In this document: positions 17,033 to 33,273 of the stretch, one piece after another
How the letters are laid out: each line of letters opens with the position of its first letter
Position numbering within the stretch: the first letter of the stretch is position 1
Assembly: GCF_009674825.1 (NCBI RefSeq)
Contig: NZ_WKJH01000001.1
Span: 310,001 to 374,000, forward strand
DNA from: Maribacter luteus
Lineage (GTDB): Bacteria; Bacteroidota; Bacteroidia; Flavobacteriales; Flavobacteriaceae
Direction of reading: 5' to 3'
DNA: 64,000 nt
The notes under the pieces: model-generated
What the model was told of the DNA's origin: nothing
The model's database searches: none
What the model saw: the letters and a program-made list of their open reading frames with translations, nothing else
Position numbers and translations under genes: made by a program

Positions 17033-17932
17033 ATGAAGAAAATCATTTTTTATATAGGGATCATCCTCATTGGTGGCAGTATTTGGTATTTGTTCGTAAA
17101 ACCTCACGATTATCAAGTTAATTTCAAAGCAAAAACATTTCCTGGTGCAATTAATCAAATGATCAAGACATGGAGCAATACAAATGAAAATTCGGAATTA
17201 CTGGAAAATGAAAAAGAAGATTTACTGGAGTTAAGACAGCGATTTCAATTCGGGGACTCTACCCATATTTATACATGGCATATTATCCCTGAAACAGATT
17301 CTACTTCAAATGTGAAGGTATATGCAAAAGATTTTGAACATAGCTTTAAAAATAAACTGACCATACCATTTTCAGATACCGATTTTGAAAAGCGTACTAG
17401 AAAAAACTTAACTGAATTCAATAAACTATTGAACGAACATATTTCCCAATTCAAAGTAAAGATAATCGGTGAGGAAGAAATCAAATCAACATATTGCGCT
17501 TGTACTACACAATCAACGACCCAGTTTGGTAAAGCGAGAGGCATGATGAAAGACTTTCCGCTGTTAGATGGTTTTCTTGTTAAAAACGGACTGAAATTAA
17601 ATGGCAGACCCTTTTTACAAATCACTAATTGGGATAAAGTAAAAGACAGTATTACATTTAACTTTTGTTATCCTGTTGTACGACCCGAAACATTACCACA
17701 ACATCCAGAATTAATCTACAGGAACTTCCCTTCAACAAAAGCTATCAAAGCTGAATACTACGGAAATTACATTACTTCTGACAGGGCATGGTATGCTTTA
17801 TTGGATTATGCCCAGGACAATAATTTAAAAGTAGAGGCACTACCTGTTGAGGTTTTCCATAATAACCCCAATATGGGAGGAGATGCATTAAAATGGAAAA
17901 CCGAGGTATTTTTACCGTTAATCAAACAATAG
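17033..17932 (+). CDS. Membrane-anchored GyrI-like/AraC effector-binding domain protein
   Basis: A 299-residue protein with a good ribosome-binding context (AAAAGGAA just before the ATG). One N-terminal transmembrane segment covers about residues 4-23. A middle region, about 25-150, resembles the SRPBCC-type halves found with such proteins. The C-terminal part, about 165-299, looks like a GyrI-like/AraC effector-binding domain, with AIKAEYYGNYITSDRAWYAL and the conserved tail VEVFHNNPNMGG and TEVFLPL. No DNA-binding domain is present. Such domains bind small hydrophobic ligands or hydrolyse small toxic compounds; the role here is unknown. It stands alone between the lipoprotein pair and a symporter. 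Confidence 0.65.
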   Translation: MKKIIFYIGIILIGGSIWYLFVKPHDYQVNFKAKTFPGAINQMIKTWSNTNENSELLENEKEDLLELRQRFQFGDSTHIYTWHIIPETDSTSNVKVYAKDFEHSFKNKLTIPFSDTDFEKRTRKNLTEFNKLLNEHISQFKVKIIGEEEIKSTYCACTTQSTTQFGKARGMMKDFPLLDGFLVKNGLKLNGRPFLQITNWDKVKDSITFNFCYPVVRPETLPQHPELIYRNFPSTKAIKAEYYGNYITSDRAWYALLDYAQDNNLKVEALPVEVFHNNPNMGGDALKWKTEVFLPLIKQ

Positions 17933-18060
17933 TAGGGTCTTCCCTAAAATGTAATTCAAATTTTTAAAACATAAACCTTAGGCAGAATACTAAAAAAACG
18001 GTTAATTTAGTAGAACAGTACAACTTTATACACGAAGTACCACGACCAACCACAACCAAT

Positions 18061-19713
18061 ATGACTTCTGCTTTCGGATTTTGGGATTATTTTATTTTTA
18101 TCGTATACGCATTTTTAATTTTAGGGGTGGGCCTTTGGGTTTCTAGGGACAAAAAAGGCCATCAAAAAAATGCGGAGGATTATTTTCTGGCCAGTAAATC
18201 CTTACCCTGGTGGGCCATTGGAGCCTCTTTGATTGCTGCAAATATCTCCGCAGAACAGTTCATTGGTATGTCGGGCTCGGGTTTTGCGTCAGGACTGGCC
18301 ATTGCCTCGTATGAATGGATGGGGGCCTTGACCCTCATAATCGTAGGTAAATTTTTTCTTCCCATCTTCATAGAGAAAGGTCTATACACCATTCCTGAAT
18401 TTGTCGAAAAAAGATATTCAACCAACCTTAAGACCATATTGGCCGTTTTTTGGATAGGCCTTTATGTTTTTGTGAACCTTGCATCTGTTCTCTATCTAGG
18501 GGCATTGGCCCTGGAAACCATTATGGGCATTCCCATGCTCTACGGCATTATAGGCCTTGCCCTCTTCGCAGCGGCTTACTCGCTTTACGGCGGACTTTCA
18601 GCGGTTGCATGGACGGATGTTATCCAAGTAGTTTTCTTGATTCTCGGTGGATTGGTCACAACGTATTTAGCCTTGAACACCGTTTCTGGCGGGGAAGGGA
18701 TTATTGCCGGTTTTAAAAAAGTTTATGAAACCGCCCCCGAGCGTTTTGTGATGATTTTGGACGAATCCCATCCAGAATACAAAAACTTACCGGGCATCGC
18801 GGTTTTAGTAGGTGGCCTTTGGGTGGCGAACTTATATTATTGGGGTTTCAATCAATATATCATTCAACGTACCCTTGCTGCAAAATCATTAAAAGAGGCA
18901 CAGAAAGGTATTTTATTGGCCGCGTTTTTAAAACTGATACTTCCTTTGATTGTGGTCATTCCAGGAATTGCCGCCTATGTTATCATTAATGACCCTGAAA
19001 TAATGGCCCACTTGGGTGATGTGGCCCAGCAAAACCTACCTTCATTAGAACAAGCTGATAAGGCCTACCCGTGGCTTCTCCAATTTCTACCTACAGGATT
19101 AAAGGGTATCGCGTTTGCAGCCTTGGCAGCCGCCATTGTCTCTTCCTTGGCTTCTATGCTCAACTCTACTTCCACTATTTTCACCATGGATATCTATAGG
19201 CAATATATCAATAAAAATGCAAGTGATAAGGCAACGGTGACAACAGGAAGAATCTCGGCGGGTATCGCATTGTTGATTGCAGGGATAATGGCCCCATTAT
19301 TAGGAGGTATTGACCAAGCTTTTCAATTTATACAAGAATATACGGGGGTTGTAAGTCCCGGTATCCTAGCCGTATTCCTTTTAGGTCTTTTCTGGAAAAA
19401 AACCACCAACAAAGGCGCTATTGTCGGCGCATTGGTTTCCATTCCGATTGCCATGTACTTTAAAGTAGCCCCGAAAGGATGGTCAACAAGTGCCTTGTTC
19501 GTAGACATCCCTTTTATGAATCAAATGGGTTACACCATGATTTTTACCATGCTTGTCATTATATTGGTCAGTCTTATTCAACATAATGGTAAAGATGATG
19601 AAAAAGGAATTCCTTTGACAAAGGCTTTGTTCAAAACCAACCCAATATTCAATATTGGTGCGTTCGCGGTAATGCTCATCCTAGTCGCCTTATACAGCCT
19701 CTTTTGGAAATAG
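18061..19713 (+). CDS. Sodium:solute symporter (SSS/SGLT family)
   Basis: A 550-residue inner-membrane transporter that couples sodium entry to uptake of a sugar or similar solute. About 14 transmembrane helices can be traced along the whole length. Family signatures include WWAIGASLIAANISAEQFIG near residues 56-75, the core AYSLYGGLSAVAWTDVIQV near 176-195 (matching the SGLT-type GG..AV.WTD motif), and AAIVSSLASMLNSTSTIFTMDIY near 357-380. The length fits vSGLT-like proteins. It has its own 128-bp leader region and is followed 211 bp later by a PAP2-like lipoprotein gene. The substrate cannot be read, but its position suggests it takes up the product of the neighbouring lipoproteins. Confidence 0.92.
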   Translation: MTSAFGFWDYFIFIVYAFLILGVGLWVSRDKKGHQKNAEDYFLASKSLPWWAIGASLIAANISAEQFIGMSGSGFASGLAIASYEWMGALTLIIVGKFFLPIFIEKGLYTIPEFVEKRYSTNLKTILAVFWIGLYVFVNLASVLYLGALALETIMGIPMLYGIIGLALFAAAYSLYGGLSAVAWTDVIQVVFLILGGLVTTYLALNTVSGGEGIIAGFKKVYETAPERFVMILDESHPEYKNLPGIAVLVGGLWVANLYYWGFNQYIIQRTLAAKSLKEAQKGILLAAFLKLILPLIVVIPGIAAYVIINDPEIMAHLGDVAQQNLPSLEQADKAYPWLLQFLPTGLKGIAFAALAAAIVSSLASMLNSTSTIFTMDIYRQYINKNASDKATVTTGRISAGIALLIAGIMAPLLGGIDQAFQFIQEYTGVVSPGILAVFLLGLFWKKTTNKGAIVGALVSIPIAMYFKVAPKGWSTSALFVDIPFMNQMGYTMIFTMLVIILVSLIQHNGKDDEKGIPLTKALFKTNPIFNIGAFAVMLILVALYSLFWK

Positions 19714-19924
19714 GAAGGAACTAAAACCCCACACGGTTTAAAAAGGGAACATCTCCCAACCCTTCTAAATGGATTGCCTTTATCATTGATTTTTAAGATA
19801 CTTACCCATAAGGTTCGACCAAAATATTAACATTTTCTATATATCAAGTCCATTGGGTTTTTTTAAATTGCTAGACTATTAAAATTCAATATCACTAAAG
19901 ATCCTAATTGAAAATTGAAAAACA

Positions 19925-21274
19925 ATGAATAAAATTTTTTCCTTGATGCTCATTATCGCTCTTTTTTCCTGTAGTGATAAAAAAACGGAAGAGCCATTGG
20001 TCATAAGCCCAGAAGAGCTTCATACCGCAGTGGACAAGGTCGTTGAAATAATGATACATGATATTTTCTCGCCTCCTGTTGCAAGCCGGGTTTTTGCCTA
20101 CCCGAATGTTGCCGCTTATGAAATCATTGCCCTAAACAATGAAAAGTATATTTCTTTGGAAGGCCAGGTAAATGAACTTACTGCCATTCCCAAACCTGAT
20201 GCCAACAAACCCATAAACTATCAACTAGCTGCATTAGTGGCCCATATGGAACTAAGTAAAAGATTGATTTTCTCCGAACAGGATTTAGAAGTCTTTAGGG
20301 ATAGCCTATATAGTGTTTGGAGTGCAAAAAACGAAACCACCTTTTTAGCATCAAAGGATTATGGTTTAGAAGTTGCCGAACATATTGGTAAGTGGATGAG
20401 TGAAGACAATTACAACCAAACCCGTACCATGCCAAAATTCACGGTTGATACCGATGACGAGACACGATGGCAACCCACCCCACCGGCGTACATGGATGGT
20501 ATAGAGCCCCATTGGGACAAAATACGTCCTTTTGTGATAGACTCTGCTCAACAGTTCAAACCCATTCCACCTCCGGCATTTTCATTGGAAGAGGGCTCCG
20601 ATTTTTATAAAGAACTGAAAGAAGTCTACGATAAAGGAAATGAAATAACCAAAAAGGGTGATGAATCCGAGGAAATTAAGATAGCCCAATTCTGGGATTG
20701 CAACCCATATGTTTCGGTAACCCGTGGTCATTTGATGTTTGCGACTAAAAAAATCTCTCCTGGGGCGCATTGGATCGGCATTACCAAAATCGCCAGTAAA
20801 AAGAGTAAAAGTGATTTTGACAAAACAGTTTATGCCTACACCAAAACTTCCTTGGCAATAGCAGATGCCTTTATAAGTTGTTGGGCCGAAAAATATCGCA
20901 GTAACCTTATTCGTCCAGAAACCCTTATCAACCAACATTTAGATGAAAATTGGAAGCCCGTATTACAAACACCTCCTTTTCCGGAATATACCAGTGGACA
21001 TAGCGTCGTCTCCGGCGCCGCAGCTTCTGCCTTGACCGATATTTTTGGCGATGATTTTGCATTTGACGATGATTCTGAAGTACCGTACGGACTTCCAATT
21101 AGGAGTTTTTCCTCATTTAACCAAGCGGCCAATGAGGCAGCCATCAGTAGAATGTACGGTGGTATACATTATCGTTCGGCTATCGAGGTAGGTATTAAGC
21201 AGGGCCGGGACCTTAGCCAGTTCTTGCTTACGAATTTAAAGATGACCACAGAAAAGGACTTAGCATCAAATTAA
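19925..21274 (+). CDS. PAP2 / vanadium-dependent haloperoxidase-like lipoprotein
   Basis: A 449-residue lipoprotein (lipobox with Cys16, ALFSC) of the superfamily shared by type 2 phosphatidic acid phosphatases and vanadium haloperoxidases. The phosphate or vanadate pocket is intact in three places: K323-x6-R330-P331, S357-G358-H359 and S408-R409-x5-H415. The PAP2 signature SRx5Hx3D expects an acid at position 419, but Ala is encoded (GCT at 21179-21181). No transmembrane helices are present beyond the signal, unlike lipid phosphatases, so the soluble haloperoxidase-like branch is more likely. The activity (haloperoxidase or phosphatase) cannot be decided. The beta-propeller lipoprotein starts 5 bp downstream. 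Confidence 0.8.
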   Translation: MNKIFSLMLIIALFSCSDKKTEEPLVISPEELHTAVDKVVEIMIHDIFSPPVASRVFAYPNVAAYEIIALNNEKYISLEGQVNELTAIPKPDANKPINYQLAALVAHMELSKRLIFSEQDLEVFRDSLYSVWSAKNETTFLASKDYGLEVAEHIGKWMSEDNYNQTRTMPKFTVDTDDETRWQPTPPAYMDGIEPHWDKIRPFVIDSAQQFKPIPPPAFSLEEGSDFYKELKEVYDKGNEITKKGDESEEIKIAQFWDCNPYVSVTRGHLMFATKKISPGAHWIGITKIASKKSKSDFDKTVYAYTKTSLAIADAFISCWAEKYRSNLIRPETLINQHLDENWKPVLQTPPFPEYTSGHSVVSGAAASALTDIFGDDFAFDDDSEVPYGLPIRSFSSFNQAANEAAISRMYGGIHYRSAIEVGIKQGRDLSQFLLTNLKMTTEKDLASN

Positions 21275-21279
21275 TTATA

Positions 21280-22131
21280 ATGCAAAATTTCCCCAGGATA
21301 CTGCTCGTGCTTTTGTTGTTTACGGGTTGCTCAAATTATGGCCAACTACAATACGTTGCCAAACTCCCGAAAAAACTAAAAGAGAATTCGGGTATGACTA
21401 CTTTAAACGATTCAACGGCCTGGTTGATAGAAGATCATGGCAACAATAATGTAATCTATGAAGTTGACCTAGAAGGAAAGATTCTCCGTCAACTGGAAGT
21501 GGATAATGCCCACAATCATGATTGGGAAGATTTGACGAAGGACTCCGACAATAACATTTATATAGGGGATTTCGGAAATAACAACAATAAGAGAAAGAAC
21601 CTTACCATCTATAAAATTCCGAACCCGGATATTGAAAAAAACAAAAAAACCGAAGCCGGTAAAATCAAATTCAGTTATCCTGACCAAAAAGAATTTCCAC
21701 CTTCTGCAGCAGAAATGAATTTTGATGCGGAAGCTTTCTTTTATTATAAAAAAGCCCTTTTTATTATAACCAAGAACAGGACAAAACCTTTTAACGGGGA
21801 GGCGGCCATTTACAAAGTTCCTGCAATAACAGGGAAACATGAGGCCCAATTTATAGGTAAATTCATTACCTGTAAGGACGAGGATAAATGCCGAGTAACC
21901 GCTGCGGACATTTCCCCCGATGGGAGCACCATCGCACTACTGGGGTATGGCAATATTTGGTTGTTCACTGATTTCAAGTGGGATGATTTCTCAAATGGTA
22001 ACCTAAAAACCATAAATCTTGGAATTACCACCCAACTTGAATCTTTGAGTTTCCTAGACAACCACACCTTATTACTTTCAGATGAAAAGCAGGGTGAAAC
22101 CGGGGGCAACCTCTACTCCATTAAAATTTAA
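21280..22131 (+). CDS. Beta-propeller-like lipoprotein of unknown function
   Basis: A 283-residue lipoprotein (lipobox with Cys17, LFTGC). It consists of repeated short beta-strand motifs with Asp/Asn-rich turns (SNNNVIYEVDLEGKILRQL-like blocks, DNNIYIGDFGNNN, DGSTIALLGYGNIWLFTDF), consistent with a six-bladed propeller of the SdiA-regulated/NHL kind. No catalytic signature is seen. It begins 5 bp after the PAP2-like gene, so the two are co-transcribed; it may be a binding partner for the haloperoxidase-like protein. The 3' end is convergent with the large phosphoesterase fusion gene, 39 bp away. Confidence 0.7.
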   Translation: MQNFPRILLVLLLFTGCSNYGQLQYVAKLPKKLKENSGMTTLNDSTAWLIEDHGNNNVIYEVDLEGKILRQLEVDNAHNHDWEDLTKDSDNNIYIGDFGNNNNKRKNLTIYKIPNPDIEKNKKTEAGKIKFSYPDQKEFPPSAAEMNFDAEAFFYYKKALFIITKNRTKPFNGEAAIYKVPAITGKHEAQFIGKFITCKDEDKCRVTAADISPDGSTIALLGYGNIWLFTDFKWDDFSNGNLKTINLGITTQLESLSFLDNHTLLLSDEKQGETGGNLYSIKI

Positions 22132-22170
22132 TTTTTATAAAACTACCTGCTTATCCCTTAAGCCTGAGAA

Positions 22171-25100
22171 CTAAAATCCAAAGCCCAATCCAAAAGTAAA
22201 ACGGGGGCCATCTTTACTATCGTACAAAGCAAAGTTCAAGGATAATATATCCGCAGCATTTAGGAAAAACCCACCACCGTAAGAGGTATGCCAAATATCG
22301 GAATCAAATTCGGGCGTCCAGACACGTCCGTAATCATAACCTCCGAAAACACCCATGTTCAATGGAAGTAAACCGGTTTTCATTCGTTTAAGGCTATATC
22401 TTAAGTCTGTATTTTGATAAAACGCCCTTTTACCTGAAAAACGTTGGTTTCTAAAACCACGAAGACCATCAAGGCCACCAATACTTGCTGCTTGGTAAAA
22501 TTCATAACCATCTCCTAAATTAAGATGCGCCTTCCATTTTGTCGCCAGGACCAATCTACCACTGGGAATCAACTTATAATCAAAGGAAAGACTGGGCACT
22601 AGATATCCAAATCCTTGTGAGCCATTTTCAAAACCGGTCTTATACCCCATAAGAAGGGAGGTCGACATCCCTAATGTAGGAAATGCAACATTATCAGAAT
22701 TCGAAAAAGAATATTGCATTTCTGCCCCGACGAAATTCTTATGGTTCTCCTCACCACTGGCAACATAAAATGTATTTATGAACCTATCACTGGTTTCTTC
22801 AACCTCTACACTTTCATAATTTACCCCAAGGCGAAATTGTGATCCAGAACCACCTCGCCAAATCACGGAAGGGGTAAATGCAATGGTTCTCAGTTTTACA
22901 CGGTTGAAATCCTTACCGAGATCATCATCTAAATTCTCGGTTTCGTTTCCCCAACCAAAGAAATTAATGCTGTAGTTCGGACTTGTGAATTTTGCTCCTA
23001 AAACTAAATTGGCCTTGCCAAAAACACGGGCAAACTCTCCCTTATAACTAAAATCATAACCACTTGTTGCAAAATAGAAAGCTGCATTGAATGTATGTTG
23101 ACTGGTAAAAGGATGCTGTTGAAAACCATTGAAGGTATATATATTCGTAAAGCCCATCTTAAAACCATCATCAGGATTTGATCCTATTGAAGGAATTATC
23201 ATATTATTGCTCTTTTTGTATTTAATGGGTTGGTACGTATTGGTCTCATAATCATTTGCCAAACGCAATTTTGCCCCATCAATATTTTTCAAGGTATTCT
23301 TCTTGGCCTTCTGGTCATAAATATATACGCCTCGACTATCAATAATATCATATACATCATTGTTCTGACCACCTACCAATCGCAATTTTATTTTGCCTTT
23401 TTTTCCCTGTACTACAAACTGGTCATCATCATCCAAGCCATAGACCCATATCTCTTTGGTAGTTTCAGGATTAAAATCCTTCTTATAAAAAACTTCCCCT
23501 TTGTCTCCTTTTATAATACGCTGCCCTACAACTTGGGTGTTTCCATTCGATAATTGGGTAATGGTAAAAAAATCATCCTTATCAGTACCTGTGACCATGG
23601 CATATTTATTCAACAGCCCATAGTACTCGTCCGCAGTTTTCTGCAGGTTACTTTTTCTTGCCAATAACACTTTTTTTATTCTATCGACCCCCTCATCCTG
23701 TACGGCCTTGGGGAAAAACCCGAAAGCCTCATCCAGAACATCTTCCGTAATATTATTTTGTAGAAAAAGGGCTTGTTGTTGCCATTGTTCCTTTGTAGTT
23801 TCAGAGAGGACAACCATATCCAAAGCGTAAGCCTTAGGAGAGCCATTAAACCCTTTAACGCTTCGAATTTCCTCATTAAATCCTTCCATCAGGGTCAAAC
23901 CTGGTACAATGCGGGTTATCAAGTTCATTAACGGTCCATCGCCCATTATCGAGAATACTTGGTCACGATCCCTAGGTACCGGCCTATAAACCACCTTACC
24001 TTTCTCAATTTTTTTAAAACGGGCCCATCGCCATTGGTCGGTATGGCGATCCCAATCCCCGATCAACATATCGAATAGGCGTGCCTTTATATAGGCTTCC
24101 TTGTCTACTTTGTATTTTTCATCCTTTCGAAGGTTTAAAAGCATGTCGTCCGTACTATCCATTTTATTGGCATACCCAAAACTTTTTTGGTCACCATGTC
24201 CGTCATCGGTACGTTCCTCTATCATATATAACTCATCACCGAATTCATCGGTATAATCTTTTATTGCATCTTGTTTTGGAATGTAATAAAGTTTTGGATT
24301 GGTATGATAAATACCTACCGCATCTGATAAAGTACCTACGGTCAAGGAGGCATACGGATGTGATCCGGTGTAAAAATCCTCCAAAATACTTTCTGTGACG
24401 GTACCATCAAAATCACCAACGACATATTGCTCCTTAAAAGCCATTGCCTGTAAATAAATCTCGGCACTTTTACGTAATGCCCTCATTACATATTCCTTCC
24501 CTTCTTTGTTGACCAGCCTAAGGGACCTTGATTGGTGGCCCCCACCTTTTCTAATTACTTTTAATCCTCCGAATAATGTATCAAGATCCACCGTGGGAGC
24601 CTTAACTTTTTTCGCGTATAAATCACGATACCTTTCCCCCCATATGGTTTTGAACAATTTACTTTTGTCCACTTCTTCTGCAGTATATATAGAGGCTTCT
24701 ACCTCTGGCGGAAAGGATTTTGGATACGTCTTCGTATTATCTTCTTTTTCTGCAGGCAATACCTCGGTTGTGAACAAAAACTCCTCTTCACCATTGTTCC
24801 CAATACCATAGTATCTTATTCCTGAAGAGCCATCGGTATAGACCTCAAGTACCGCATAACCCATTCTACCCGTTGAGAACTTACTACCGTTCATTAACCT
24901 TGTTGCACCTTCCTTGGCCCCAGCACCACTAATGATTTGCGGTGTGTTGTCCTCAAAAATGTATTGAAGGGAATGTTCATGACCCGAAGCCAAAATCACC
25001 TTTTCGGAATATTGCGCCAATGTCATAATACGTTTTCTAAGCTCTCGATAGTTCTTATTGTTCAAATCCTCTGGAGAAGCACCTGTAGTTTTTCTCAATA

Positions 25101-25881
25101 GATTGATAATGGTGCCGATTACCGGTAAAGGCAATTTGGTTCCTGTAGGGTACAATTGACTTTTTAAGGAAAACTGTCCGCCATGCTGTCCATAACTGGA
25201 CATTGGGTGATGCAGGGCAATAAGTGTGGTCTTACCCATATTTTTTTTGATAAGCCCTTCTAATTCCTCAAAGAATTTTTCCCTATCCTTAATTTCACAA
25301 TTATCGTTCATCGTTGGGTTTTTATCCCAATTGGCTAGGTACCATTCGGTGTCAATAGCAATTACGACGACATCGTCACTAACATCAATTTTTTGAATGG
25401 CACAGCCATCCTCAGGAAAAAACACGTGTTTATTATCCAGTTTTTTTTCAATGTACTTTTGTTCCCTTTCCAAACCTTTAAGTCCTTCATTGTACCAATC
25501 ATGGTTTCCTGGAATGAAAATAGGATTGCCTTTAAAACCATCAAGCGTTTTCAGCTGGGCTTTAATATGGTTTTTGGCCAAAAGGTATGCCTCAGTGGAG
25601 TCTTTCTTATCCGGCATTCCCGCAGGGTATATATTATCGCCCAAAAAAATCGCCGTACTGTTCTTCCCCGCCTGATCCAATCTTTTTTTGAAAAGTTTGA
25701 GTACCGGGTTCATATCGCCCATTGGTGACTTGCCGGCATCTCCTATTAAATAAAAAGTATGGGAAACTTTTTTTTGATCTTTAACATCTTGCTTACCCAC
25801 TTCTTCTGCATATTTGGGTTTATAGGTAGCACAACTGCTTCCTATCATCAACAAAGCGATCAAAAGGTAATATTTATGCAT
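22171..25881 (-). CDS. Metallophosphoesterase / kinase-like / outer-membrane barrel fusion lipoprotein
   Basis: A 1236-residue protein when started at the ATG at 25881; an upstream in-frame start would add 17 residues before the signal peptide. The lipobox is MIGSSC. A calcineurin-type phosphoesterase spans about 40-360 (GDAGK at 47, GDN at 81, GNHDW at 125, HH at 224, GHEH at 300). A middle domain, about 430-680, has kinase-fold hallmarks: EYVMRALRK near 463, IGDWDRHTDQW at 607-617 and PRDRDQVFS at 636. An Omp85/D15-like barrel follows from about 890, with GLRGFR near 1139 and a terminal Phe. It is therefore predicted to sit in the outer membrane with its soluble domains in the periplasm. 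The kinase-like reading is my inference. It diverges from the HD-Pycsar gene with 53 bp between. Confidence 0.8.
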   Translation of the reverse strand: MHKYYLLIALLMIGSSCATYKPKYAEEVGKQDVKDQKKVSHTFYLIGDAGKSPMGDMNPVLKLFKKRLDQAGKNSTAIFLGDNIYPAGMPDKKDSTEAYLLAKNHIKAQLKTLDGFKGNPIFIPGNHDWYNEGLKGLEREQKYIEKKLDNKHVFFPEDGCAIQKIDVSDDVVVIAIDTEWYLANWDKNPTMNDNCEIKDREKFFEELEGLIKKNMGKTTLIALHHPMSSYGQHGGQFSLKSQLYPTGTKLPLPVIGTIINLLRKTTGASPEDLNNKNYRELRKRIMTLAQYSEKVILASGHEHSLQYIFEDNTPQIISGAGAKEGATRLMNGSKFSTGRMGYAVLEVYTDGSSGIRYYGIGNNGEEEFLFTTEVLPAEKEDNTKTYPKSFPPEVEASIYTAEEVDKSKLFKTIWGERYRDLYAKKVKAPTVDLDTLFGGLKVIRKGGGHQSRSLRLVNKEGKEYVMRALRKSAEIYLQAMAFKEQYVVGDFDGTVTESILEDFYTGSHPYASLTVGTLSDAVGIYHTNPKLYYIPKQDAIKDYTDEFGDELYMIEERTDDGHGDQKSFGYANKMDSTDDMLLNLRKDEKYKVDKEAYIKARLFDMLIGDWDRHTDQWRWARFKKIEKGKVVYRPVPRDRDQVFSIMGDGPLMNLITRIVPGLTLMEGFNEEIRSVKGFNGSPKAYALDMVVLSETTKEQWQQQALFLQNNITEDVLDEAFGFFPKAVQDEGVDRIKKVLLARKSNLQKTADEYYGLLNKYAMVTGTDKDDFFTITQLSNGNTQVVGQRIIKGDKGEVFYKKDFNPETTKEIWVYGLDDDDQFVVQGKKGKIKLRLVGGQNNDVYDIIDSRGVYIYDQKAKKNTLKNIDGAKLRLANDYETNTYQPIKYKKSNNMIIPSIGSNPDDGFKMGFTNIYTFNGFQQHPFTSQHTFNAAFYFATSGYDFSYKGEFARVFGKANLVLGAKFTSPNYSINFFGWGNETENLDDDLGKDFNRVKLRTIAFTPSVIWRGGSGSQFRLGVNYESVEVEETSDRFINTFYVASGEENHKNFVGAEMQYSFSNSDNVAFPTLGMSTSLLMGYKTGFENGSQGFGYLVPSLSFDYKLIPSGRLVLATKWKAHLNLGDGYEFYQAASIGGLDGLRGFRNQRFSGKRAFYQNTDLRYSLKRMKTGLLPLNMGVFGGYDYGRVWTPEFDSDIWHTSYGGGFFLNAADILSLNFALYDSKDGPRFTFGLGFGF

Positions 25882-25893
25882 AATGAATAAAGT

Positions 25894-25926
25894 GAAATGT
25901 AAATTTTGTAATTTGGCTTTATCAAA
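25894..25926 (-). promoter_or_regulatory. Candidate flavobacterial promoter for the phosphoesterase fusion gene
   Basis: On the minus strand, TTTG (25923-25926) and TACATTTC (25894-25901) are separated by 21 bases. This fits the Bacteroidota -33 TTTG / -7 TAnnTTTG pattern with one mismatch in the -7 box. It would leave a very short leader before the ATG at 25881, so this is only a suggestion. Confidence 0.3.
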
Positions 25927-25934
25927 CCTCACAT

Positions 25935-27116
25935 ATGTCGGATATAATCGATAAAACTAAATCTTTTGCGACTGATTTATTAACCCGGAAATTAGCCCCT
26001 GAGTTTCTGTACCACAATCTTACACATACCCAACGGGTTGTCAAAAGTACTAAAGAAATCCTAGATTCCCTCAAGCTTGAGGACAAAGAGACGGAACATC
26101 TAATCCTCGCCGCATGGCTGCACGATACTGGATACACCAAAGGAAGTGAGGACCATGAAGAAACCAGTACGGTAATTGCCAAGGAATTTCTTGAAAAGCA
26201 AGGATATAGCCAAGAGGGCATAAAAAAAATATGTTCGATTATCCTAGCTACGAAAAAGAAACACAAACCTATAAATATTGCTGAAGAAATAATCAGGGAC
26301 GCCGACGCCTCTCATTTTGCACAGAGCAGTTATATGGACACCTGTGAGTTTTTAAGGGAAGAGCTATCCCTTTTAGGTATTGCCGAATATAACCAAAAGG
26401 AATGGTTAAAAACAAACCTTGAGGTTTTAGGAAAAGAACATGATTATTACACTGATTATGCCAAAGAGCATTGGCAACCCAAAAAGGAAAAAAACCTAAA
26501 AAGGCTTAGCAAAGAATATAAAACAATAAAGTCCATAGTAAAAAAAGAAGCCCTAAAGGCAAAATTTAAGAGTGATAGTCCGGATCGGGGCATACAAACA
26601 TTATTTCGTGTTACCTTAAAAAACCACTTAACCCTGAGTGACATCGCCGATACAAAAGCGAATATCCTTTTATCGGTGAATGCCATTATAATTTCCATGG
26701 CTTTATCGAACTTAATTCCCAAGCTTGATAATCCTTCTAACCACTACCTGATCACTCCTACCGTAATTTTCATCTTCTTTTCCGTAGCATCTATGATTTT
26801 AGCGGTTTTGGCCACTAGGCCAAATGTTACGAGTGGGGAATTCACTAAAGAAGATGTGAAAAACAAAAAAGTGAACCTTCTGTTCTTTGGCAATTTCCAC
26901 AAAATGAAATTATCGGAGTACGAATGGGCCATTAATGAATTGGTCAAGGACAAGGATTACATCTACTCTAGCTTAACCAAGGACCTTTACTACTTGGGGT
27001 TGGTCTTGAACCGAAAATATAAGATCTTACGTTGGACGTATACCATTTTCATGATCGGCACCGTAATTTCGGTCATTGCATTTGCGGTTTCCTTCCAACT
27101 TTATGGTACAAAATAA
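25935..27116 (+). CDS. HD-domain phosphohydrolase fused to a Pycsar-type (PycTM) membrane effector domain
   Basis: A 393-residue fusion. The N-terminal HD domain (about residues 15-185) has candidate metal ligands H31, H63-D64 (WLHDTGY) and D122 (RDAD), typical of enzymes that cleave nucleotide phosphates. After a charged linker, the C-terminal part (about 218-390) matches the PycTM effector family: LTLSDIADTKANILLSVNA, then transmembrane helices at about 243-262, 270-293 and 367-387 with a soluble segment between the second and third. In Pycsar anti-phage defence, such effectors respond to cCMP or cUMP made by a neighbouring cyclase. No nucleotide cyclase gene is seen nearby, so this may be a self-contained nucleotide sensor or a housekeeping relative. 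It is convergent with the GAF gene (24 bp apart). Confidence 0.8.
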   Translation: MSDIIDKTKSFATDLLTRKLAPEFLYHNLTHTQRVVKSTKEILDSLKLEDKETEHLILAAWLHDTGYTKGSEDHEETSTVIAKEFLEKQGYSQEGIKKICSIILATKKKHKPINIAEEIIRDADASHFAQSSYMDTCEFLREELSLLGIAEYNQKEWLKTNLEVLGKEHDYYTDYAKEHWQPKKEKNLKRLSKEYKTIKSIVKKEALKAKFKSDSPDRGIQTLFRVTLKNHLTLSDIADTKANILLSVNAIIISMALSNLIPKLDNPSNHYLITPTVIFIFFSVASMILAVLATRPNVTSGEFTKEDVKNKKVNLLFFGNFHKMKLSEYEWAINELVKDKDYIYSSLTKDLYYLGLVLNRKYKILRWTYTIFMIGTVISVIAFAVSFQLYGTK

Positions 27117-27140
27117 AAGCTATTCAAGATTTGGTTTGAA

Positions 27141-29513
27141 TCAAGCCTTCAACTCATCCATTAAATCATCATAGGTATAGGTCTTTCCTGACTCGTTATC
27201 CTTATTATAGAGAATTTCGGCACGTATGGCTTTAAGTCCGGTTACCCCTTGCAATCCTTCTAACTCAACAATTTCAATATTGTTGGTGAAATACCCTTTA
27301 GATTTTAAGAAGCTGATGTATCTTAAATATTCCAACTCCTCTTTTTTCTGTGAATATACGATGGAAAGCTTCCCAGTTTGGGTAAGACGTTCGTTGGTTC
27401 CTTTTATAAATGATTTATCAATACGTTTCTTTATCACCTCATAACGGGCATTATAGGTGCCATCTACATCAAAACGTTTCTCATCTAACCTAAAACGTAT
27501 AGAGAGCGATGTACTGTAAACCAATAATAAAGAAGCCACATCCAAAGCTACGGGTAATTTAGACTTTAGCTTATAGTGCGTATTTTCCATATCGCACATA
27601 ACCTGTAATTGCCATAATCTCAGGTTGTTCAAATAGAGCATATTAAAGGGTAACTGACCGGCAATGGATTGCCCCACATACATATTGTGTTCAACCCCAT
27701 CGGTCTTATACCTTTCAAAATAATGGGGGAACATAGCTTGGGCATCCTCTTGTTTCCTATCAATTACAGAAGCAAGTTTTTTATTGATAGTCATTACACT
27801 ATCATCATATTCCTTACGGTGATTGTAATAGGTCTCGGTTTTGGGATCTATCTCATCCTCATAGGCCAAGATCATCTTTTCCAATTGTTTATCCGAGCTT
27901 TTCAAATAATCGAAAATCGGTATTACTTCCGCCTTTATAAAATCAAATATAGCTTGCTCACTATTGGTATTCAAAACTTCCTCGATTTCTTCCAATAGAT
28001 TGTTTATCCTGAAAATCAACTCTTCATAAATAGGCAACTTTTGCTTTTCCCAAGCTATCGTTGTTATTTTATTGATTTTCGAAAGTTGTATGATCAAATC
28101 TTTCTGAATGGATAAATTCCTAGCCTTTGAAGAATCCTTAATGTCTATCTGACCATATAAAGGGTGTACATCCTTGAAAACGATATCATTGAACGATGGC
28201 TGTTTTCCATCGGATTCTTCCCATATGAACTTTTTCGCCTGTTCTTTGAACTTCCAATAAACCGATGAGTGTACCGTGGTACATTCCTTTTGTATAACGG
28301 CATCGATCAAATTCTCCTCCTCGGCTGCGGAACGCATTACGGCAGTAACGATATAGGGCATTATGTCCCCTAATTTTTGTGCATTGACACTGTTCAGCGC
28401 ATTCACTTTGGTAGAAACCAACTCTAAAATACCCAAAAGCTTGCCTTCATTAGAAATTGGTGCGAATATGGCACTTTTTATACCTTGTTTCTTTAAACTT
28501 TTTGCGGGTAGTTCCCCATCGCACATTTCATAATACTTGTCCACATTGGCAACCGCAAAGTAATCGTGTTGGTCCAATAGTTTACTGTATGACCTTTTAC
28601 ACAAAGCAGCGGAACAGGTTTCCATGATTTTATCATGCAGTAAGTAACTGGTCATTTCCTTATTATGAAGCTTCTCGAATAAATCCTCATCAGGATTATA
28701 GCTTACAAACCCCACTCTTAAATCTTTCATATTAAAGAAAGATCTAAATACATCCTGTAGGTTGTTGATGAAATTATCACTTACCTTTTTATCCCTGGAA
28801 ATAAGGCTGGATTTAATCTCGGAAATGGAATGTTCGGTTGTGGCATCGAACATATTTGAAATCACAAATCCCCTTGCGATGAAACTGCCCGGAGGAATCT
28901 TATCCTTCCATACCTCAACATTGTCGAAATTATCCAATAACTCGTCAACATCTTCCGGAGTAAGATCTTTAGCCTTTTCTGTTGGAATCAATTCCATAAA
29001 ATCGGCATTATAAAGTATGCGGTAATGCTTCATTACCCCATTTTCATCAGGAATATCATAAAAAAGCGGACGTTTAAAATCGAGATTGAAACCGTAGTAA
29101 AAACTAAGGATTATGGTACACCCCATGATATAGGAAAGATGTTCAGGAACCCCTCTCGCCTTCAATTCAAAATCATCCCCCGCCGCTGCCAATATTTTTT
29201 TAAATCTTTGGGAGCCACTGAAGATCAAATCATAATAGGGTAAAGAAGCGACTTTGATCTCGTTATGGGTCAATACCTCTGAAAAGGAATCCTGTAAGAT
29301 AATCTCAATGACCTTTTCATACTTTTTAAGGAGTGAAGGATCCTTAAATCCTTCCCGAAGCTCAGGATATGGTGCCTGTGCCTCTAAAACGTATTTAGCT
29401 TTGGCCGCAATAAACTCATCATTGCTCTCTGCCATACGATCATACATCTCCAACAACTTGTTGAAGCTGATCAAACGGTCTAAAGGAAATTCATCATCGT
29501 AATATTGTCCCAT
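27141..29513 (-). CDS. GAF-domain protein of unknown function
   Basis: A 790-residue cytoplasmic protein, started at ATG 29513; an in-frame TTG two codons upstream is less likely. There is no signal peptide or transmembrane helix. The N-terminal third is helical. A GAF-like ligand-binding domain lies around residues 255-400 (ETCSAALCKRSYSKLL, then IKSAIFAPISNEGKLLGILEL). A striking block FKDVHPLYGQIDIKDSS follows near 445, and then long helical and coiled regions. No output domain such as a kinase, cyclase or HTH is recognised. Relatives occur in other Bacteroidota as uncharacterised GAF proteins. It converges on the HD-Pycsar gene and diverges from the metallophosphoesterase gene, so it may belong to the same signalling neighbourhood. 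Confidence 0.7.
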   Translation of the reverse strand: MGQYYDDEFPLDRLISFNKLLEMYDRMAESNDEFIAAKAKYVLEAQAPYPELREGFKDPSLLKKYEKVIEIILQDSFSEVLTHNEIKVASLPYYDLIFSGSQRFKKILAAAGDDFELKARGVPEHLSYIMGCTIILSFYYGFNLDFKRPLFYDIPDENGVMKHYRILYNADFMELIPTEKAKDLTPEDVDELLDNFDNVEVWKDKIPPGSFIARGFVISNMFDATTEHSISEIKSSLISRDKKVSDNFINNLQDVFRSFFNMKDLRVGFVSYNPDEDLFEKLHNKEMTSYLLHDKIMETCSAALCKRSYSKLLDQHDYFAVANVDKYYEMCDGELPAKSLKKQGIKSAIFAPISNEGKLLGILELVSTKVNALNSVNAQKLGDIMPYIVTAVMRSAAEEENLIDAVIQKECTTVHSSVYWKFKEQAKKFIWEESDGKQPSFNDIVFKDVHPLYGQIDIKDSSKARNLSIQKDLIIQLSKINKITTIAWEKQKLPIYEELIFRINNLLEEIEEVLNTNSEQAIFDFIKAEVIPIFDYLKSSDKQLEKMILAYEDEIDPKTETYYNHRKEYDDSVMTINKKLASVIDRKQEDAQAMFPHYFERYKTDGVEHNMYVGQSIAGQLPFNMLYLNNLRLWQLQVMCDMENTHYKLKSKLPVALDVASLLLVYSTSLSIRFRLDEKRFDVDGTYNARYEVIKKRIDKSFIKGTNERLTQTGKLSIVYSQKKEELEYLRYISFLKSKGYFTNNIEIVELEGLQGVTGLKAIRAEILYNKDNESGKTYTYDDLMDELKA

Positions 29514-29625
29514 ACGCAACGTTAGTCTCTACTTGACTTGCAAAATTACAAAATAGCCAGCAATTTTTATCGTACACCTCCTTTGTCATTCCTTGTTTTT
29601 TAAGATATTTATAGAAATTTCAGGT

Positions 29626-30558
29626 ATGTCATCGAATTTTAGATTAACAAGAGCTTATAAGAATGCCAAAGTGGTCCCGTTCGACGACACATCAAAATTC
29701 ATTCTTTTTAGTGATTGCCATAGGGGCGACAATAGTTTTGCCGATGAATTTGCCAACAATCGCAACATCTACTTCCATGCCTTAAAGCACTATTATAACA
29801 ATGGTTTTCAATATTGCGAAATCGGTGACGGTGACGAACTTTGGGAAAACCGTTCCTTTGAACCTATATTCGAAGCCCATAAAAATGTTTTTCAATTGCT
29901 TAAGCAGTTTCACCTAGAAAACAGACTGCACATGCTTTGGGGCAACCATGACATGGTATATAAGGATGAGGCTTACGTAAAGAAATATCTTTCCAGTTAT
30001 TTTGAACCTATAGACAATAAGGATAAAGAATTATTCGAAGGCATTACCTATGATGAAGGTGTTATATTGAAACATAAAGAAAATGAACAAGAGCTCTTTT
30101 TAACCCATGGCCACCAAGCCGATTGGTGGAATTATACTTTTTGGCGTTGGGGTCGATTTTTGGTCCGCATATTATGGAAACCATTACAGGTATGGGGAAT
30201 TGCCGATCCTACTAGTCCGGCTAAAAACTATAAAGAACTGATAAAGGTCGAAAAGCGAATAAAAAAATGGATATTGAACAACAGTAATCTAATCACGATC
30301 GTTGGTCATACCCATAGGCCTCGATTCCCGGAACCAGGCGATATTCCTTTTTTTAATGATGGTAGCTGTGTTCACCCACGGAGTATAACGGGAATTGAAA
30401 TCGAAAACGGAACCATATCCCTTATAAAATGGCAAATTGCCACCAAGGATGATGGCACTTTGCAAATTGTACGTATACTGCTGGAAGGGCCTCAGAAATT
30501 AATCGACTATCAAAAGGCGATCAACGATCAACCCTCCCAACAGTTCCGCCGTCATTAG
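29626..30558 (+). CDS. Calcineurin-like metallophosphoesterase
   Basis: A 310-residue cytoplasmic phosphoesterase, started at ATG 29626; a TTG at 29593 in frame is disfavoured. All motifs of the two-metal family are present: D30-x-H32 (FSDCHRGD), G67-D68, G106-N-H-D109, H161/H163 (THGHQ) and G227-H-T-H230. It lacks the lipid-associated N-terminus of LpxH, and residues 165-195 are rich in Trp and aromatics (WWNYTFWRWGRF), which may give membrane contact. The substrate is unknown; cyclic nucleotides, nucleotides or phospholipid precursors are all possible. It diverges from the GAF gene and converges with tonB. Confidence 0.85.
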   Translation: MSSNFRLTRAYKNAKVVPFDDTSKFILFSDCHRGDNSFADEFANNRNIYFHALKHYYNNGFQYCEIGDGDELWENRSFEPIFEAHKNVFQLLKQFHLENRLHMLWGNHDMVYKDEAYVKKYLSSYFEPIDNKDKELFEGITYDEGVILKHKENEQELFLTHGHQADWWNYTFWRWGRFLVRILWKPLQVWGIADPTSPAKNYKELIKVEKRIKKWILNNSNLITIVGHTHRPRFPEPGDIPFFNDGSCVHPRSITGIEIENGTISLIKWQIATKDDGTLQIVRILLEGPQKLIDYQKAINDQPSQQFRRH

Positions 30559-30576
30559 AGGAACTTTTAATATTGT

Positions 30577-31305
30577 TTACTGATCAGCTAACTTAAAGTT
30601 CACTGGAATACTGTAAGGCACGGTTACCGCTCTACCTCTTTGCATTCCCGGGGTCATTTTTGGCAAGGAAGATACGATTCTACTTGCTTCTTTTTCCAAT
30701 CCTGGATCTGGACCTCTTGTTCTGATTCCGTCGATATATCCTTTGGAATTGATGGCGAACTGTACGAACACCCTACCTTGAATACCCATTTCTGCGGCTA
30801 TCTGTGGATATCTGAATTCTTTTTTGATATGATCTTGGATTTTCTTTTGAAAACATGCCTTACGCTCAGCATTTCCTTTGGCACTCTCACAACCTGGGAA
30901 TACCGGAACGTTTTCGATAATTGCAAAGGGAACTGAAATTTCCTCTTCTTCTTCACCTACCTCTACATCATCAACATCAACTACTTCCTCAACTACTTGA
31001 TCTTGACTGGATTCTGTACTTTCGATTACGGTTTCTTCAATCTCCGCAGCATCTTCAACGATTTCTATAATCTCGGGTGCTGATGGTGGTGGTGGTGGTG
31101 GTGGAGTTTTGATCTGTTCAGTAATAGGAACATCTTCTTTAAGATCCTCAACCACGTTCAACATTTCTACAATCTTATCCTGTTTCGGGTATGATTTAAA
31201 TTCCAATGCCCTCCAGGTAAGAAAAAGGACAAGGGTCAAGCCTATTACAAAGTAGAGGCCACTATTTTTATTTAAATCGGCACTAGGGTTTTTCTTTACT
31301 TCCAT
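30577..31305 (-). CDS. TonB-family energy transducer
   Basis: A 242-residue protein that transmits proton-motive force to TonB-dependent outer-membrane transporters such as SusC. One N-terminal transmembrane helix covers about residues 14-31. A Pro-rich stretch (PPPPPPPSAPEI near 67-78) and a very acidic Glu/Val linker (about 80-125) follow. The C-terminal TonB domain, about 150-242, has YPQIAAEMGIQGRVFVQFAI and ends in VTVPYSIPVNFKL. It is monocistronic as far as the sequence shows, without ExbB/ExbD nearby. Confidence 0.92.
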   Translation of the reverse strand: MEVKKNPSADLNKNSGLYFVIGLTLVLFLTWRALEFKSYPKQDKIVEMLNVVEDLKEDVPITEQIKTPPPPPPPSAPEIIEIVEDAAEIEETVIESTESSQDQVVEEVVDVDDVEVGEEEEEISVPFAIIENVPVFPGCESAKGNAERKACFQKKIQDHIKKEFRYPQIAAEMGIQGRVFVQFAINSKGYIDGIRTRGPDPGLEKEASRIVSSLPKMTPGMQRGRAVTVPYSIPVNFKLADQ

Positions 31306-31613
31306 GACGTTTGTATTATGAATTACTCAAATGTACGTCTGATTTGGAATTTCAAACATGATAATTATCAGTTTATCCCTATTTTTTTTAAAAATTCACA
31401 ATTTAATCCCGTTTTTTTAAGGATGTGGAAATTGAAACCCATTAAAATCGATGATTTTCTATAAAAAATCTTGCTTTTAAGTCATATAACGGTAGAAAAC
31501 ATCGATAAAACACCACCTATAATTCTTCCTTTACCCCGAACCAAATGAATAAAATTATCGCCTAAAGGCATTTTTTTATCCTATTTTCAATCTAAAATAT
31601 TTAGAATATGAAT
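31306..31613. other. Intergenic region upstream of tonB, no gene seen
   Basis: This AT-rich spacer of about 300 bp contains no convincing reading frame. It should hold the tonB promoter. The terminator hairpin of the oxidoreductase operon borders it at 31614-31647. Confidence 0.5.
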
Positions 31614-31647
31614 AAAAAAAATAACGGACCCAAAAAGGGTCCGTTAT
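31614..31647 (-). terminator. Intrinsic terminator of the Gfo/Idh/MocA-DoxX operon
   Basis: A perfect 11-bp stem (ATAACGGACCC at 31621-31631 with its complement at 31637-31647) encloses a 5-base loop. On the minus strand it is followed by seven T, placed 40 bp after the oxidoreductase stop codon. Confidence 0.88.
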
Positions 31648-31686
31648 CATCCAATTCAACAAAAGTCATAAAACGCCACCTTATAC

Positions 31687-33273
31687 CTACATTGGTGCAA
31701 GCAACGCCTCATCAAAATCAATTCCTTCAATAGGTTTTAATTGTTCCGTTTCTTTATCCCACTCAATACGTCTTCCCAACTTATACGATAGTCCGGCCAT
31801 ATGAGATGAAATGGCTTCTTCAAAACCTTCCTTGACCCCACAGCTTACCTTACCCCCATTTCGTGCACAGCTCAACCATTCCCGCATATGTAAGAAAGTA
31901 GAATCTACCCTAGCACCGTTAATGTAGGTCCACATCAATCCTTTATCAGCAAAATATTGTGAAGTGGCCGAAGCGACCCCGTCCGGAGTAGAAGCTCCCG
32001 GGTCGTATTGGTAGATCGGCACCCCTGGACTCATTTTTTCATTTTCAATATTATCGGCATATCGCGTAGACTGCCTATCTGGCCAAATGGTCAATTGATT
32101 CCCAAGTTCCAAGGTACCATCATGTCCCATTAAGATCGTAGGGCGGTTAAAACCGTTTCCCAAGGTTGCACTATACACAAAGGTCATTCCTTGCTCTTTC
32201 CCTTTTGCCTGGCTGCTTCCGGTAGAGAAGTTCGGATACTCCATATTTACTTGTAGCACATCGGGTACATTACGACCATCCCTATGGGTATAGATACCCC
32301 CTGAGGTCATTACCGAATCCGGGATTCCCATATTCAAGACACAATTCAATCGGTCATAATCGTGCGACAATAGATCGCCCGAAAGCCCTGAACCATAAGC
32401 CCACCATTTACGCCATCTAAAGAAATGGTTCTTGTTAAAGGGGACTTTCGGTGCAGAACCCAAAAACATATCCCAATCTATGGTCTGCGGACTTGCATCG
32501 GGATGAATATCGTACATCCAAGCCCCATTGTCGTCATTTCGGTTGGTATTGGTCTGTATCAATGAAACGTGCCCTATGGTTCCTTTTTCGATAATATCTT
32601 TCGCCGTCTGAAAACTCAAGGTTTGCCTATGTTGGTGACCTACTTGTAAAGTGGCTTTGGAATTACGCGCCGCCTCCCTTAAACGATAGGTTTCCTCCAC
32701 GTTATGGGTCATCGGCTTTTCAACATACACATGTATATTATTTTCCAAGGCATCAATGGTCATAGGAGCATGCCAATGGTCTGGAGTGGCAATTACCACT
32801 GCATCGACCTTTCCTGAACGTATCATCTCTTGATAAGTACGAAAACGCTCCATTTTATTATCTGGGGTGTTAAAGGAGTTCAAAGCCTTATTTGCCCTGT
32901 AATCGAAAATATCGCAGATACCTGCTAAATGTACATTCAATTTATCCTGGGCTTCAAAATCCGCCAAAGTGGAATTATTGGGGTTTTCCTCTGCTGCCAA
33001 GCGCATTTCCTCTTTCCATTCATTCGTAGCAAAACCTAATGCACGACAAAGCTGCTCCCCTCTTATTCCAAAACCTATAATACCGACCCTGATCGGATCA
33101 CCTCCAATACCTGGCACGGCAGCTGGCAATGAGGGTTGTATGTTCAGTTGTTCCAAAATGGCGGAACGTTCTTTTTTCTTAGCAACGGTACTGGCCGCCC
33201 CGGCCCACCAAACTGCCCCCATGAGGGGAATACCACCTAAACCTTTTAAAGCGTCTCTTCTTGTAAATTTCAT
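31687..33273 (-). CDS. Gfo/Idh/MocA-family oxidoreductase with Tat signal
   Basis: A 528-residue exported NAD(P)-dependent sugar or polyol oxidoreductase. The N-terminus carries a twin-arginine signal (TRRDALKGLGG, Arg5-Arg6, then a hydrophobic stretch ending AGAAST), so the enzyme folds with cofactor before export. The Rossmann motif GFGIRG lies at residues 67-72. The family lysine motif EKPM follows at about 188. The C-terminal dimerisation/substrate domain contains GSGLSGDLLSHDYDRLN, where D-x3-H replaces the usual catalytic region. The length is long for the family, as usual for the Tat-exported Bacteroidota group. The DoxX gene lies 31 bp upstream in the same operon. The substrate is unknown. 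Confidence 0.9.
   Translation of the reverse strand: MKFTRRDALKGLGGIPLMGAVWWAGAASTVAKKKERSAILEQLNIQPSLPAAVPGIGGDPIRVGIIGFGIRGEQLCRALGFATNEWKEEMRLAAEENPNNSTLADFEAQDKLNVHLAGICDIFDYRANKALNSFNTPDNKMERFRTYQEMIRSGKVDAVVIATPDHWHAPMTIDALENNIHVYVEKPMTHNVEETYRLREAARNSKATLQVGHQHRQTLSFQTAKDIIEKGTIGHVSLIQTNTNRNDDNGAWMYDIHPDASPQTIDWDMFLGSAPKVPFNKNHFFRWRKWWAYGSGLSGDLLSHDYDRLNCVLNMGIPDSVMTSGGIYTHRDGRNVPDVLQVNMEYPNFSTGSSQAKGKEQGMTFVYSATLGNGFNRPTILMGHDGTLELGNQLTIWPDRQSTRYADNIENEKMSPGVPIYQYDPGASTPDGVASATSQYFADKGLMWTYINGARVDSTFLHMREWLSCARNGGKVSCGVKEGFEEAISSHMAGLSYKLGRRIEWDKETEQLKPIEGIDFDEALLAPM

Follow-up and report, generated by a model that had tools for sequence, protein, structure and literature searches.

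If a kinase were to work beyond the inner membrane of a Gram-negative bacterium, where would its phosphate come from? In this article I will discuss a gene of Maribacter luteus that poses this question again: could an enzyme fixed to the outer membrane transfer phosphoryl groups, and with which partner? The gene occupies positions 22171 to 25881 on the minus strand of a stretch of 64,000 nucleotides (the window), and a model that saw only the letters and their open reading frames (the sequence-only reading) had described its product as a lipoprotein joining a phosphoesterase, a middle region with motifs resembling those of atypical kinases, and an outer-membrane barrel, from which reversible phosphorylation outside the inner membrane was proposed. 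As modelled here, the middle domain almost certainly has a kinase fold, and its site is broken only in genomes that lack a strong match to the PycTM membrane domain, which suggests that the kinase-like protein and PycTM work together. The parts of the protein are these (aa, amino acids):

22171..25881, minus strand: whole gene, an open frame for a 1236-aa outer-membrane lipoprotein with purple acid phosphatase (PAP)-type phosphatase, kinase-like domain, beta linker and Omp85 barrel
25831..25881, minus strand: lipoprotein signal peptide, up to Cys17 (sequence; conserved Cys)
24748..25773, minus strand: PAP-type metallophosphoesterase, aa 37-378
23608..24600, minus strand: predicted atypical kinase-like domain, aa 428-758 (AlphaFold model and structure matches)
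24538..24546, minus strand: Gly-rich loop G446-G448, between sheet strands 1 and 2 (conservation; strand positions from the model)
24469..24471, minus strand: Lys471, candidate phosphate-binding residue (conservation; R467 conserved too)
24031..24060, minus strand: catalytic-loop motif GDWDRHTDQW, aa 608-617 (conservation; register with the CtkA and HipA motifs)
23953..23982, minus strand: putative metal-binding motif including D638 and D640, aa 634-643 (conservation; CotH profile alignment)
23260..23604, minus strand: all-beta linker, aa 760-874 (secondary structure of the full-length model)
22174..23208, minus strand: 16-stranded Omp85-type barrel, aa 892-1236
22453..22461, minus strand: barrel RGF motif, aa 1141-1143 (RG[FYW] conservation in relatives)

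The frame is a single one of 1236 codons, running on the minus strand (the sequence-only reading had named no strand) from an ATG at 25881 to a stop at 22171, and the plus strand over the same positions holds many stops in that frame; an alternative GTG start at 25932 would lengthen the product by 17 aa. The gene is single copy in its own genome, and an artefact of frame or assembly was ruled out by homologues of similar length across many genomes. All of the motifs named by the sequence-only reading could be located in the protein, namely GDAGK (aa 47-51), GDN (81-83), GNHDW (125-129) and GHEH (300-303), followed by GDWDRHTDQW (608-617) and PRDRDQVF (636-643), then LRGF (1140-1143) and the C-terminal Phe (1236).

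What, then, is the middle region? Its AlphaFold model (aa 394-769; predicted local distance difference test, pLDDT, 89.2; predicted template modelling score, pTM, 0.90) is a two-lobed kinase fold, and the solved structures that match it include those of PI4KII, CotH, CtkA, HipA and Fam20; this high-confidence prediction, together with the matches, bears out the kinase fold that had been proposed from the motifs. PI4KII is the best of the matches, tied with CotH, and since rows no more than 1 Z apart are counted as ties, its place above CotH carries no meaning. Homologues mostly keep the DRH and DRD residues (D611, H613, D638 and D640) on which the same proposal depended: across 86 domain sequences the catalytic loop retains D609 in 83, D611 in 76, R612 in 82, H613 in 72 and Q616 in 77 (N in 4), the metal-binding motif retains D638 in 78 and D640 in 76, and the Gly-rich loop and lysine region retain G446 in 74, G447 in 76, R467 in 76 and K471 in 80. 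The full set of 18 diagnostic residues is kept in 62 of the 86, every catalytic-loop and metal residue is present in the window protein, and in lineages where the site is intact the domain is probably catalytic.

Comparison of sequences alone gives fainter signals. A profile of 40 relatives, searched against the sequences of the PDB, found CtkA best (E 0.029), aligned on the catalytic loop, and this loop is also in register with the HipA motif. When profiles were compared with profiles, CotH domains gave P 7e-4 and whole CotH proteins P 0.005 against the kinase-like domain, the IPRDRDQAF stretch aligning opposite the IPxDxD motif of CotH (an IPYDYD-type motif was seen in four of six CotH sequences inspected), and three unrelated control families gave P 0.16 to 0.7; the phosphoesterase and barrel profiles (P 0.007 and 1e-8) were discarded as unfair controls because flanking residues are shared with the domain alignment. 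The CtkA, HipA and CotH signals appear weak when taken alone and agree with the predicted fold. The 40 relatives (set A1) come from 101 rows, copies with a domain match shorter than 270 aa having been left out, which were reduced to 47 at 60% identity and then relieved of seven mostly degenerate or partial rows; the CotH, HipA and control comparisons used the 71 of 86 rows with a DxDR[HR] motif, with 29 of 30 HipA domains and 28 of 30 CotH domains. Among the family models, Pfam leaves the middle region of the window protein without a credible match, NCBIfam and phmmer against the PDB return little for it, the HipA_C model (PF07804) is not reached (no match in the window protein, three among the 40 members, best E 0.19), and the CotH model (PF08757) is reached neither by the window protein nor, among the families listed for the 40 members (25 of 28), by any of these.

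A homologue was matched in 39 of the 60 genomes sampled as relatives (own genome included), most at full length, a few cut by contig ends and one, G055, as a barrel only, and the kinase-like domain itself is found in 111 of 296 Bacteroidota genomes (own genome included). From the latter I examined 80 distant stretches, selected manually and not at random so that a range of protein sizes and genera was represented (L096 has a partial domain match only), which contain 85 domain copies from 68 genomes and 23 families in four architectures: 37 with phosphatase, kinase, linker and barrel, 34 with kinase, linker and barrel, 8 with kinase and linker, and 6 with the kinase alone. The four-part form is shared by each of the 80 close relatives that a pattern search retrieved. 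Set A2 comprised 66 of 80 loci and set A3 49 of 80. A survey of domain fusions, which the sequence-only reading had called for, therefore finds the domain widespread and also without phosphatase or barrel, and the four architectures make it the common core around which barrel and phosphatase were gained or lost; on a tree of the 84 of 86 rows longer than 250 aa, the phosphatase-bearing label needs nine changes, and the stand-alone copies, with a single hydrophobic stretch at the N-terminus, form one clade. As separate observations, the genomes with stand-alone proteins of about 430 aa and one N-terminal hydrophobic stretch (L061-L066) also carry the long form, and in family f23 barrel-less kinase-linker genes adjoin each other, three at L067:5129-10148 and two at L068:5436-8775; in two of these genes the catalytic loop is altered.

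A possible partner is encoded next to the gene, which is flanked as follows:

25935..27116, plus strand: divergent neighbour with an HD domain and a PycTM membrane domain, the proposed inner-membrane partner (Pfam; linkage and co-occurrence)
21280..22131, plus strand: convergent neighbour, an SdiA-regulated/phytase-like propeller gene (Pfam; recurrence in loci)

The divergent neighbour matches PycTM (PF18967) in Pfam at E 3.8e-38. When matches with E up to 1e-26 are taken as strong (weak ones being counted down to 1e-5), PycTM is present in 96 of the 296 genomes, 93 of the 96 carry the kinase-like domain, and in 81 of these 93 a PycTM match lies within 16 kilobases (kb) of the domain gene; with all matches down to 1e-5, 96 genomes have both PycTM and the domain, and 15 and 16 are discordant. 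If a site counts as intact only when it retains D609, D611, Q or N616, D638 and D640, the 111 genomes with the domain (G018 and G024, which fall outside the set of 296, are not counted) divide into 93 intact with strong PycTM, 7 intact without, 11 degenerate-only without and none degenerate with, for which Fisher's P is 7e-11, a value that overstates certainty because genomes share ancestry. Families f30, f31, f33 and f48 each contain both intact and degenerate states, and nine degenerate rows fall in five places in the tree, with long branches and unsure placement. It also seems to be PycTM, and not the HD domain, that goes with the active site, since the HD proteins of 205-214 aa beside the degenerate L201 and L211 are without PycTM, and the strong PycTM matches of family f37 lie in open reading frames of about 200 aa; elsewhere in G072, from which L211 comes, there is a weak PycTM match.

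The remaining parts of the chain are of better known kinds, and here too the sequence-only reading, which had named a phosphoesterase and an Omp85-like barrel, was sound. The N-terminal domain matches Metallophos in Pfam at E 1.7e-9, has a fold of the PAP type and carries all five motifs and seven metal ligands of purple acid phosphatases; the ligands are complete in 32 of the 37 distant relatives with this domain and in 77 of the 80 close ones. In the window's own family, second paralogues (L219 and L220) have lost these ligands. The linker, read from the full-length model only, is predicted to consist of regularly spaced short strands without POTRA-like helices (POTRA domains typify BamA and TamA, though some Omp85 subfamilies lack them), and the barrel is of the 16-stranded Omp85 type with an RGF-type motif, similar to TamA and BamA; RG[FYW] occurs within the barrel of 62 of 71 barrel-bearing relatives, a Pfam ShlB match over this stretch falls slightly under the cut-off, and NCBIfam matches Omp85_fam at E 2e-13 with a score of 50.6 against a cut-off of 200.

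On which side of the outer membrane do these domains lie? Domains preceding an Omp85 barrel are normally periplasmic. The lipoprotein named by the sequence-only reading is supported by the conserved Cys17: a Cys stands no more than 60 residues before the phosphoesterase domain in every one of the 79 close relatives examined (out of 80), and in the window protein it is followed by ATYKPKY with no acidic run; according to one study, a Bacteroidota lipoprotein that lacks the export signal belongs on the periplasmic face (PMC12045153). For patatin-type Omp85 proteins, another reports export of the N-terminal domains (PMC4104836), and with this exception beside the general rule I infer, rather than observe, a periplasmic orientation.

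The wider neighbourhood, in which the name of each cluster comes from a Pfam scan of a single member, repeats itself across distant lineages. Among the 80 distant loci the HD-PycTM gene is found in 35 (17 families), the SdiA-regulated/phytase-like gene in 24 (12 families; in 19 of 25 gene pairings it shares the strand and lies directly upstream), Ppk1 in 16 (9 families, against 0.39 expected by chance) and a SixA-like phosphatase in 10 (5 families), and HD-PycTM, Ppk1, the phytase-like gene and the target gene form runs in one direction in L181, L183, L187, L188 and L093. At least 13 genomes of family f37 also have ppk1 on the contig of the domain gene, at a distance of about 7-16 kb. Co-occurrence with ppk1 was dropped as evidence, since 267 of the 296 genomes have it and only its position is informative. 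None of the nine window neighbours scanned by Pfam (17033-33273) is a cyclase; in family f37 (L193, L197, L199, L214 and L215), a gene for a class III nucleotide cyclase containing TPR repeats separates the gene from short PycTM genes, a hint of cyclic-nucleotide signalling in this family. Family f30 has CotH-family genes near the kinase-linker-barrel gene (L195:10072-11205 and L192:4502-5680, in genomes G128 and G077), which places two distinct families of atypical kinase at one locus. Farther along the window lie, on the minus strand at 27144-29519, a gene whose 792-aa product has no credible match in Pfam and whose relatives recur close by in 54 of the 80 close loci; on the plus strand at 29593-30555, a second calcineurin-like phosphoesterase gene with a sub-threshold Pfam score (33 of 80 close loci); and on the plus strand at 19925-21274, before the phytase-like gene, a PAP2 phosphatase gene (also 33 of 80). 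A family of about 800 aa of no known kind recurs in 10 of the 80 distant loci.

How could these parts act together? I would give even chances to an account in which the protein is an outer-membrane phosphotransfer enzyme with a built-in phosphatase, partnered by an inner-membrane PycTM protein. The enzyme would be lipid-anchored at the outer membrane, where its 16-stranded Omp85-type barrel would hold the kinase and phosphatase domains; the periplasm-facing atypical kinase domain (PI4KII/CotH/HipA-like) would pass a phosphoryl group, or a nucleotidyl group, on to a target in the envelope and, in the long form, the PAP domain of the same chain would reverse or edit this transfer. It would represent the outer half of a two-membrane system, the inner-membrane partner bearing PycTM (fused in the window to an HD hydrolase), with Ppk1, SixA and the phytase-like protein as recurrent companions. 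The reversible phosphorylation first proposed is plausible, within a limit set by the 11 of 111 genomes that carry only a degenerate kinase-like copy, and polyphosphate as the donor is a lead whose sole basis is the gene neighbourhood. Rather improbable, to my mind, is a more specific two-membrane phosphotransfer circuit, in which PycTM would admit to the periplasm a donor (a nucleotide or polyphosphate made by Ppk1) or a nucleotide signal, the outer-membrane kinase would use it and the PAP would reset the system; if true, this would answer how a kinase works without periplasmic ATP and would explain the lack of strong PycTM in all genomes with a broken kinase site.

Several points weigh against the general account of a phosphotransfer enzyme with a PycTM partner, beginning with the energy source itself, as ATP is not expected in the periplasm. 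The sequence evidence for a kinase is weak by itself, given that the PDB profile search next returned unrelated matches from E 0.069 (ATP synthase gamma), that HipA in the profile-profile comparison gave a non-significant P of 0.2, leaving that kinship to fold and motif register only, and that Pfam on the 40 members gave no credible kinase match among the families listed (25 of 28), its scattered matches including a best E of 0.0021 to an unrelated family. As for the coupling, the PycTM threshold and the rule for intactness were both set after seeing the data; including weak PycTM matches changes the table to 93, 7, 3 and 8 (P 2e-6), with three degenerate genomes now positive; and the seven intact genomes without strong PycTM (G106, G155, G260, G272 and G307 of family f31, G273 and G341) mean that an intact site does not require it. 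In the neighbourhood, HD-PycTM, Ppk1, phytase-like and SixA genes are all missing from the 11 loci whose copy is stand-alone or barrel-less, and the ppk1 gene of the window's own genome lies on a different contig. A role in phosphate starvation was dropped, as the low-phosphate table of F. johnsoniae, in the section available (PMC8115612, section 14), has no protein of this architecture, the locus tag of the homologue not having been identified, a result that also counts against the scavenging of phosphorus considered below.

What else might such a protein do? It is possible, if somewhat unlikely, that the kinase fold has other chemistry or small targets, as a lipid, inositol or sugar kinase or an AMP- or UMP-transferase acting on an outer-membrane lipid or glycan: folds of the protein kinase-like (PKL) type with non-kinase chemistry exist (SelO), PI4KII as the best structural match is a lipid kinase, and PAP2 phosphatase genes are near in 33 of 80 close loci, but its tie within 1 Z with CotH empties that ranking of meaning and the recurrent neighbours include no evident gene for lipid or glycan synthesis. 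The decay of the kinase-like and phosphatase-like domains in some lineages leads to the idea, which I find unlikely, that the protein is mainly an Omp85-type assembly or translocation factor on which these domains are binding scaffolds; the TamA/BamA-like barrel and its RGF motif would fit, as would the 11 of 111 degenerate-only genomes, where the barrel still follows in 10 of 10 loci examined, and the loss of phosphatase ligands from 5 of 37 distant long forms, whereas the catalytic residues kept as a set in 62 of 86 sequences, the core residues kept in 10 of 12 rows of barrel-less and stand-alone forms, and the linker without predicted POTRA-like helices all speak for more than a scaffold.

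The PAP fold and the phytase-like and Ppk1 neighbours would also suit phosphorus scavenging, with the PAP freeing phosphate from organic esters, the barrel importing it and the middle domain binding a phosphorylated ligand, and yet about half of the barrel forms are without a PAP (34 without, 37 with) while keeping such neighbours, and Omp85 barrels are not known to serve as nutrient porins; I consider it quite doubtful. Practically no weight is left for an Omp85 metalloprotease, the label under which Omp85 proteins with PF00149 appear in the available text of Heinz and Lithgow 2014 (PMC4104836), as it is contradicted by the PF00149 family and by the fold.

Returning to the phosphotransfer enzyme with its PycTM partner, how does it compare with known systems? 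CotH kinases (PF08757; B. cereus 5jda/5jd9) share 11% identity with the middle domain, and CotH is not known to be fused to Omp85 or PAP; type II phosphatidylinositol 4-kinases are eukaryotic lipid kinases with 9% identity, and the bacterial kinases HipA and CtkA, unlike the window protein, are not outer-membrane proteins. The PAP domain differs from purple acid phosphatase (ACP5/TRAP) by its fusion to a kinase fold and a barrel, and the barrel, in the model, from TamA and BamA by the lack of POTRA-like helices before it. Each of these folds is known, while the combination and the PycTM coupling are apparently new, as the literature searched yielded no description of the kinase-like domain or of that coupling. 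Close to it is the Omp85 subfamily that Heinz and Lithgow 2014 named metalloprotease ('Metallo'), which has the same N-terminal PF00149 and Omp85 barrel in one chain and is, very probably, what the long form belongs to; the text available of that account mentions no kinase-like domain, barrel-less forms or partner genes (PMC4104836), and its enzymatic label is corrected here. With a kinase fold that is anchored at the outer membrane, occurs in 111 of the 296 genomes and is evolutionarily tied to PycTM and polyphosphate kinase, the donor question becomes a testable one. With Pycsar, finally, the window neighbour has in common the PycTM domain (PF18967) of Pycsar effectors, and it differs in the fusion of this domain to an HD domain and in having no cyclase among the nine neighbours scanned, giving PycTM a context other than phage defence.

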